DNA from: Marinitoga sp. 1197 | GTDB taxonomy: Bacteria > Thermotogota > Thermotogae > Petrotogales > Petrotogaceae | Direction of reading: 5' to 3' | Assembly: GCF_001021165.1 (NCBI RefSeq) | Contig: NZ_AZAY01000016.1 | Span: 62,001 to 126,000 of the forward strand | DNA length: 64,000 bases | Shown: positions 4,268 through 5,604 of the stretch, piece after piece | How positions within the stretch are numbered: the first letter of the stretch is position 1 | Layout: the number at the start of each line of letters is the position of its first letter | Position numbers and translations under genes: made by a program | The notes under the pieces: generated by a model | The model's input: the letters and a program-made list of their open reading frames with translations, nothing else | Told to the model about the DNA's origin: nothing | Database searches by the model: none

Positions 4268-4342
4268 TGGAGCCGGTGAAGGGACTCGAACCCCCAACCT
4301 ACTCATTACGAATGAGCCGCTCTACCGTTGAGCTACACCGGC
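4268..4342 (-). tRNA. tRNA-Thr (anticodon CGT)
   Basis: On the minus strand a full cloverleaf can be folded: acceptor arm GCCGGTG / CACCGGC, D arm beginning GCTC, anticodon stem GCTCA / TGAGT enclosing loop TTCGTAA, and T arm GGGGG-TTCGAGT-CCCTT. The anticodon is CGT, decoding ACG (Thr). The 3' CCA is encoded. A near-consensus promoter lies just upstream and a terminator directly downstream. Confidence 0.97.
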
Positions 4343-4388: not shown

Positions 4389-4429
4389 GGGGGTTTTTTT
4401 AAAATATTATGATATAATTTAATATACTA

Positions 4430-4619
4430 GACTATCTAAAAAGCCTCAAATGAAACGAAGACTCGAAGATTGCCCTTAAAATTATGAATGGATGCCGTCA
4501 AAATTACATGGATGTAATGCCGCGAAACAATACACGATGTATTGTTTGAGCGACGGCTGAGAATAAATAATTTTAAGGATAATCGCTGTCTGAGTGAATT
4601 TGACTTTTTAGACATCGTA
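4430..4619. repeat. Nested palindromic element (MITE-like or structured RNA)
   Basis: About 190 bp folding into a branched palindrome. Outer arms TCTAAAAAG (4435-4443) and CTTTTTAGA (4604-4612) are perfect inverses. Next come tcaaat/atttga, then a perfect 12-bp pair CCTTAAAATTAT (4474-4485) with ATAATTTTAAGG (4567-4578), then GCCGTC (4494-4499) with GACGGC (4552-4557). Inside are two hairpins: attacat/atgtaat (4503-4518) and a 10-bp stem aaacaataca/tgtattgttt with CGA loop (4525-4547). The 11-bp direct repeat TTAATATACTA flanks it at 4419-4429 and 4620-4630, as a target-site duplication would. No ORF is evident inside it. It lies between tRNA-Thr and the HD-GYP gene and accounts for most of that gap; the rest is plain AT-rich sequence. 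Confidence 0.75.
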
Positions 4620-4713
4620 TTAATATACTATATTCAAAATAAAAAAAATATATATTATAAATTTTAAAGCAAAATAGCAAATCAAAAAGATTTTTATGGA
4701 GGTGGAATTTTTT

Positions 4714-5604
4714 ATGCCATTTGAAAAATATAAGATTTTTGATTCTACAAATTTATCAAAAGGTTTATTAAATATTTTTTCTTTTGATTATATGGAAAAT
4801 AAAGACAATGCAGAAATTATAATATCAAATAAAAAAGAAAAAATTGAAAAACCTTATATTTTATTGGATAATGAACAATTAAGTTTAATTGAAAATGGTA
4901 AAATCATTTCAATATTCGATTTTTCAATTGAAAATTTTCAAATTTTATTATTAAAATTACTATCAAAGATTTTTAAAGAAGAACCATTTAATCTTTTATA
5001 TTTATTAGAAGAAAAGAGGAAAGAAATCGCTGAATTCATCAAAAATTTAATAGTTCTATTTGAAGTCGAAGATAAGAAAAGTAGTATGAGTCATACTCAA
5101 AGAGTTGCATTTTATTCTAAAAAATTTGCTGAATATTTGGGTAAAACAGAAGAAGAGATCAATCTTATTTATGATTTAGCCATGCTTCATGATGTTGGAA
5201 GAATAGGAATAGAACAATTAATGCTTTTTTCAAAAACACGTGTATTCGATCTTGAAGAATGGGACCTCGAACATACTGTTGCTGGTTCTGTATTTCTGGC
5301 AAATAGAAGAGAATTATGGTATGCTATGGATGTTGTTAGATCACATCATGAACACTGGGATGGAACGGGTTATCCTGATCATTTAAAAGGAGAAAAAATT
5401 CCATATTTTGCAAGATTTATAGGCATTATTGACTGGTTTGATTGGGCTACACATACCGCTACTTCCGAACATTTTGGCATATTATCACCAGATGAAGCTA
5501 TTGATTATATAATTTTTAATTTAGGAAAAAAATTTGATCCCATTCTTGGAAAGGAGTTTGCTAACTTCTTAAAGGACTTTTTATCAAAAGAAAAATTTAT
5601 ATAA
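4714..5604 (+). CDS. HD-GYP domain protein, probable cyclic-di-GMP phosphodiesterase
   Basis: About 296 residues. The C-terminal two thirds is an HD-GYP domain: first His in SHTQR (about 127), the HD pair in MLHDVGRIG (about 159-160), then HHEHWDGTGYP (about 211-221), which contains the GYP signature. Family members hydrolyse c-di-GMP with a di- or tri-metal centre. The first 95 residues have no domain I recognise and no membrane segment, so the protein looks cytoplasmic. The start at 4714 follows GGAGGTGG at suitable spacing; the upstream ATG at 4696 overlaps that site. It is a single-gene unit ended by the hairpin at 5617-5653. The palindromic element sits directly upstream and may affect its expression. 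Confidence 0.88.
   Translation: MPFEKYKIFDSTNLSKGLLNIFSFDYMENKDNAEIIISNKKEKIEKPYILLDNEQLSLIENGKIISIFDFSIENFQILLLKLLSKIFKEEPFNLLYLLEEKRKEIAEFIKNLIVLFEVEDKKSSMSHTQRVAFYSKKFAEYLGKTEEEINLIYDLAMLHDVGRIGIEQLMLFSKTRVFDLEEWDLEHTVAGSVFLANRRELWYAMDVVRSHHEHWDGTGYPDHLKGEKIPYFARFIGIIDWFDWATHTATSEHFGILSPDEAIDYIIFNLGKKFDPILGKEFANFLKDFLSKEKFI

Follow-up and report, generated by a model that had tools for sequence, protein, structure and literature searches.

A palindromic element of 192 bp, inserted between a tRNA-Thr gene and an HD-domain gene of Marinitoga sp. 1197, is best explained as a non-autonomous transposon (MITE) moved in trans, with a TwoAYGGAY (RF01731) interior that offers CsrA sites as RNA. We put the probability of this whole explanation at about 0.62. 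Under it, the DDE_Tnp_1 transposase of a resident insertion sequence would recognize the MITE ends in trans, a step that is inferred, and would duplicate an AT-rich target of ~9 bp, for which both the ends and the duplications were demonstrated. The interior would not be a transposon remnant; its predicted fold combines a long stem and a three-way junction with two hairpins that have CANGGAYG loops. A transcript of the GGA strand would, by inference, most likely present a CsrA dimer with two sites ~29 nt apart.

The element and its copy family

In the window (the whole 64,000-nucleotide stretch analyzed), the MITE spans positions 4428 to 4619, with the plus strand taken as the one carrying the GGA loops. 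It is flanked by direct repeats of TTAATATAC, the 9-bp target-site duplications, at 4419 to 4427 on the left and 4620 to 4628 on the right, limits that come from a comparison of 41 copies. An earlier note on this DNA had described an element of ~190 bp between 11-bp direct repeats; those repeats exist (TTAATATACTA, 4419 to 4429 and 4620 to 4630), each comprising the 9-bp duplication and the adjacent TA. The terminal inverted repeats read TAGACTATCTAAAAAGCC on the left (4428 to 4445, plus strand) and, on the minus strand, TACGATGTCTAAAAAGTC on the right (4602 to 4619), against a family consensus of TAGnnTGTCTAAAAAGTC. The matched arms consist of the outer arms (TCTAAAAAG/CTTTTTAGA), a further paired arm joining 4468 to 4485 with 4567 to 4584 (16 of 18 positions paired), and a plus-strand three-way junction at 4494 to 4557, closed by GCCGTC (4494 to 4499) and GACGGC (4552 to 4557).

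Both inner hairpins are also on the plus strand. Hairpin 1 (4503 to 4518, ATTAC-ATGGAT-GTAAT) carries the site CATGGATG at 4507 to 4514, which fits the RsmA/CsrA consensus CANGGAYG. The loop of hairpin 2 (4525 to 4547, AAACAATACA-CGA-TGTATTGTTT) reads CACGATG, short of one G of the GGA site, and the window copy would therefore probably retain a single CsrA-type site. All of the matched arms and inner hairpins listed in the earlier note were recovered where it had placed them, and its judgment that the pairing lies far beyond chance holds on either strand (folding energy of -60.5 kcal/mol versus -33.3 ± 3.6 in shuffled sequences, z of about -7.5). No open reading frame of 80 amino acids or more is present inside the 192 bp.

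The note had suggested looking for further copies of the arms in this genome and in relatives. Searching the strain's own genome (2.27 Mb in 51 contigs) with the element produced 92 alignments at ~40 places, the top full-length copies being 87 to 94% identical. Together with 19 RF01731 matches at an E value of 0.01, which belong mostly to other MITE families, this makes ~60 related elements. Across 41 compared copies (38 from this genome and 3 from sister species), 22 had an exact duplication of 9 bp or more at their flanks, compared to 1.4% when flanks were paired across different copies, and most copies had the terminal repeat on both ends; where the target is A+T rich, the element limits can shift by one or two bases. 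At the orthologous site in two sister species (G003 and G004), the tRNA-Thr gene, promoter region, and HD-domain gene are joined directly, with neither the element nor a second duplication. The family thus combines terminal inverted repeats, target-site duplication, short length without a transposase gene, ends shared with an insertion sequence, and filled and empty sites, and we regard its identity as a MITE, one of the two possibilities raised in the earlier note, as nearly certain, although no transposition was observed. Mobility within the genus is well supported.

A search with the terminal repeats led to two contig ends (C1 and C50) bearing a DDE_Tnp_1 transposase gene (PF01609, E value of 4e-12) delimited by TAGCCTGTCCAAAAAGTCTAAAGTC or by a version differing at one base. 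The ends of this insertion sequence read TAGCCTGTCCAAAAAGTCTAAAG in the strain itself; a sister species has TAGCCTGTCTAAAAAGTCTAAAGG, there too beside a DDE_Tnp_1 transposase. One end of a second MITE family in the strain's genome, TGTCCAATTAGTAAAG, resembles the left end of a sister-species insertion sequence. Sister species share these ends, and in G001 both surround a 1,031-bp copy with a damaged gene and flanks lacking a clear duplication; G023 has a related element of 1,071 bp (37% protein identity) with 9-bp duplications in the copies compared. Against NCBIfam the transposase gave only subthreshold matches, to IS982, IS5, IS1182, and IS4 models. No insertion sequence assembled end to end was found in the strain's own genome, and when lone terminal repeats there were followed up in search of complete insertion sequences, solo ends, further MITEs, and unrelated genes made up most of the results. 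The MITE is not a simple internal deletion of the insertion sequence, because their interiors do not match. Since the insertion sequence shares the ends of the MITE around a different interior, mobilization in trans is likely; we hold with good confidence that this transposase group moves the family, with the trans step itself inferred.

Several copies show further layering. One member of the second MITE family sits inside a transposase gene fragment of the likely mobilizing insertion sequence (L156, 1153 to 1413). Eight loci (L047, 2499 to 2898; L052, 2598 to 2881; and L054, L055, L057, L069, L070, and L071) hold element copies with ~80 to 220 extra bases, always in the same internal position, following CCTTA. 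The added modules, which include ACACGCTACCGCGGGTA and CTTAGATTTTTTA...TAAAAAATCTAAG and have counterparts adjoining other element copies, are probably a second repeat family nested within the MITE family.

The TwoAYGGAY core and its inferred link to CsrA

Scanning against Rfam at curated thresholds returned only the tRNA. Below those thresholds, plus-strand positions 4461 to 4591 match RF01731 at 26.5 bits (E value of 0.044), short of the gathering cutoff of 43, whereas scores of up to 52 bits occur among the strain's other copies; the window copy has AYGGAY in loop 1 only, rather than in both loops. Other weak matches (snoR27 and folP) were treated as chance. Above the cutoff, RF01731 is multicopy in five of seven genomes of the genus (G000, G002, G003, G004, and G005). 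Its copies sit in families with different termini, such as TGTCCAATTAGTAAAG, CAGACTGTTGACAAAATAAAATA, AGATTGAAAAAAATAAAAG, and TTGGAATCAAAATAAAAC, the last three of which were read by eye, with no target duplications established for them. As a separate observation, elements with ends like CAGACTGTTGACAAAATAAAATA at L094, L095, L098, and L107 (in G003 and G004) have similar sequence on either side, a short hairpin or AT-rich and terminator-like, as if a target of ~14 to 20 bp had been duplicated.

Among 30 aligned cores, 27 of 41 pairs changed on both sides, and 95.6% of cells were paired, compared to 77% in shuffled alignments and 34 to 46% with slid partners. Kinship among copies inflates such counts, yet several entire stems have been swapped for other complementary sequence, while the loop 1 columns C-A-n-G-G-A-y-G are kept. 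The cores therefore meet the criterion of a covarying junction fold with two hairpins. On sequence evidence, the interior of the window element is a diverged form of the predicted TwoAYGGAY RNA fold, weakly matched in this copy. The second possibility in the earlier note, a structured RNA laid out as a three-way junction, thus stands alongside the first, without transcription having been demonstrated. The same note had named, as grounds for refutation, an element that was single copy, without covariation, and without transposon relatives; the opposite was found on all three counts.

The consensus site of RsmA is CANGGAYG and that of Escherichia coli CsrA is RUACARGGAUGU (PMC7705225); the conserved loop 1 equals the former and lies near the latter. 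A CsrA-binding role for TwoAYGGAY has already been proposed from motif scanning (PMC4333381). Paired sites 28 to 31 nt apart occurred in 30 of 30 RF01731 hits from the genus and in 18 of 20 clostridial ones, against 0 to 0.1% in shuffled sequences, although these counts are partly circular, because the loops are part of the model by which the hits had been identified. In the window family, whose 39 copies were found by BLAST, both sites were kept in 16 copies and at least one in 34; a damaged second loop marks a large subfamily in the strain's genome, to which the window copy belongs. By the criterion of CANGGAYG in a hairpin loop, the window copy has one site.

The strain's csrA gene lies beside a fliW-like gene and flagellar genes. 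csrA is present in all seven members of the genus and in none of 17 sister-family genomes tested, and no RF01731 match at an E value of 0.01 was found in those 17, 2 of which have a related insertion sequence. This shared absence represents one or a few evolutionary events rather than 17. As an indicator of which strand works as RNA, mismatches on the GGA strand (G-U versus A-C) were counted; they numbered 12:9 in the genus, 55:13 in Pseudomonas, and 9:9 in Lachnospiraceae. Taken together, and as an inference made without transcription or binding data, we consider the chance that the core binds CsrA as RNA to be slightly better than even.

The interior might instead be a passenger with functionless loops, its structure persisting only through a small number of source copies and the good transposition of palindromes. 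The well-supported mobility suits such an account, as does insertion into AT-rich, gene-free DNA, which accounts for the positions of the copies, and as does the amplification of the subfamily with a broken second loop. Nor does the GGA strand show a bias relative to neighboring genes. In the strain's own genome, with genes called by simple open reading frame rules, 28 upstream genes pointed away from the element and 11 toward it; for downstream genes the corresponding numbers were 22 and 17. Under the same gene calls, neighbor 3' ends face the element more often in the mostly Pseudomonas set. A mere passenger is nevertheless hard to reconcile with a core that, within the genus, keeps its loops and has changed yet pairing stems inside differing termini. 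The same holds for the core in Clostridia and Gammaproteobacteria, and descent of copies poorly explains a cross-phylum fold with RsmA consensus loops. We consider this account unlikely, but it is the one that survives best beside a MITE carrying CsrA sites.

A role for the hairpins at the DNA level is improbable. Hairpins are recognized as single-stranded DNA in IS200/IS605 elements and REPs, and here too they could be signals for a transposase or host factor: the fold is equally stable on both strands, the G-U and A-C counts outside Pseudomonas do not favor RNA, and strand-specific DNA recognition would also place both loops on one strand. The ends and 9-bp duplications, however, match a DDE insertion sequence that has no paired GGA hairpins in its own copies, so that the hairpins are dispensable for its transposition, and the loop consensus belongs to an RNA-binding protein.

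The insertion site

The insertion separates a minus-strand tRNA-Thr gene (4268 to 4342) from a plus-strand HD-domain gene (listed from 4696, with a more likely start at 4714, and ending at 5604); the neighbors face outward, as the earlier note had reported. Other gene products of the window, assigned by eye from translations, include FtsH-, TilS-, and MiaB-like proteins. On its left, the insertion abuts a plus-strand -10-like box, TATAAT (4413 to 4418), and in the empty sites of the sister species the ribosome-binding site of the HD-domain gene follows only a few bases past this box, so that a transcript from that promoter would now start with the element. With the -10 box on one side and the ribosome-binding site on the other, the element would therefore be the 5' leader of the HD-domain gene, an inference from position. 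A promoter-like match (TTGACT, 18 bp, TATACT; 4600 to 4629) spans the right end: TTGACT, within the element, forms a promoter-like pair with the A+T-rich target, pointing outward into the HD-domain gene. This gene could be transcribed from the right-end match instead of from TATAAT, with neither promoter shown to be in use.

The least probable reading, that the element is a cis-regulatory RNA of its downstream gene, as the Rfam listing would have it, draws on this probable leader position and on start codons close to many copies in the strain's genome, but copies that lie before, after, or facing away from genes in all arrangements speak against it, as does a site that is empty in sister species.

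Occurrence outside the genus and relation to known systems

Scanning genome contigs for the loop pattern gave mostly Pseudomonas among the matches listed; of 18 loci checked from these with cmscan, 13 proved to contain RF01731. At an E value of 0.01, Pseudomonas kilonensis has at least 101 matches, three other Pseudomonas or Stutzerimonas genomes have 6 to 29 each, four Lachnospiraceae 6 to 36, Ruminiclostridium 7, and Pseudoalteromonas, Shewanella, and Nevskia 4 to 13. Viral contigs yielded 17 loci with a loop pattern, 16 of which were scanned without finding TwoAYGGAY. In clostridial copies the inverted arms are long and vary from genome to genome, and an automatic duplication search found no consistent target duplication for these copies. 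Wherever it was examined, RF01731 is a dispersed repeat; mobility by target duplication was shown in the genus of the window only. Outside that genus, csrA is present in 12 of 13 RF01731-positive genomes, the lone exception being a Nevskia metagenome-assembled genome in which it was not found. Its presence in four of four positive Lachnospiraceae genomes, compared to 80 of 150 genomes from the family to which one of the four belongs, is suggestive only.

In one Lachnospiraceae genome, extra CsrA-like genes were considered as possibly element borne, and this was rejected, as they adjoin flagellin and recombinase genes and not elements. In Lachnospiraceae, several flagellin genes (L369 to L376) stand by a CsrA-like gene of divergent sequence and by an open reading frame of ~192 amino acids that, judged by eye, resembles a tyrosine recombinase. 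The arrangement recurs several times in one genome and may be a cassette for flagellin switching that has a CsrA of its own.

More broadly, TwoAYGGAY may be the shared core of palindromic mobile repeats that cross phyla, carrying paired CsrA/RsmA sites and keeping the core while exchanging termini, with tens of copies per genome titrating CsrA or capturing neighbor transcripts. We offer this only tentatively. The findings themselves point, for an orphan Rfam family, to its likely nature as a mobile repeat and to a candidate partner, CsrA, and they suggest that selfish DNA can engage a global posttranscriptional regulator; scattered copies could buffer CsrA, or transposition could rewire its regulon. 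They are also a warning that an RNA family curated as cis-regulatory may in fact be a repeat.

Rfam lists TwoAYGGAY as an orphan motif of the cis-regulatory class with unknown function. The elements share its junction fold and two AYGGAY-loop hairpins, and members from the genus pass the curated score; canonical clostridial copies reach 138 bits, whereas the window copy stays under the cutoff. In the open-license literature searched, we found no account of TwoAYGGAY as a dispersed mobile repeat and no work tying these repeats to mobility or, apart from the proposal noted above, to CsrA, although such work may exist elsewhere. CsrB, RsmY, and RsmZ, the RNAs that sequester CsrA/RsmA, are single-locus small RNAs with several sites. 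Like theirs, the GGA loops here fit CANGGAYG, but they come two per element and are scattered among tens of mobile copies, without binding data. Pseudomonas REPINs and R families are likewise dispersed palindromic extragenic repeats with MITE-like relatives (PMC2718517, PMC3116915), and the passages searched in these two reports contained no link between such repeats and RsmA sites. With the MITEs of bacterial DDE insertion sequences, the window family shares inverted repeats in common with an insertion sequence, target duplication, the absence of a gene, many copies, and empty sites; it differs in that its interior is a conserved predicted RNA fold, found with several different termini.
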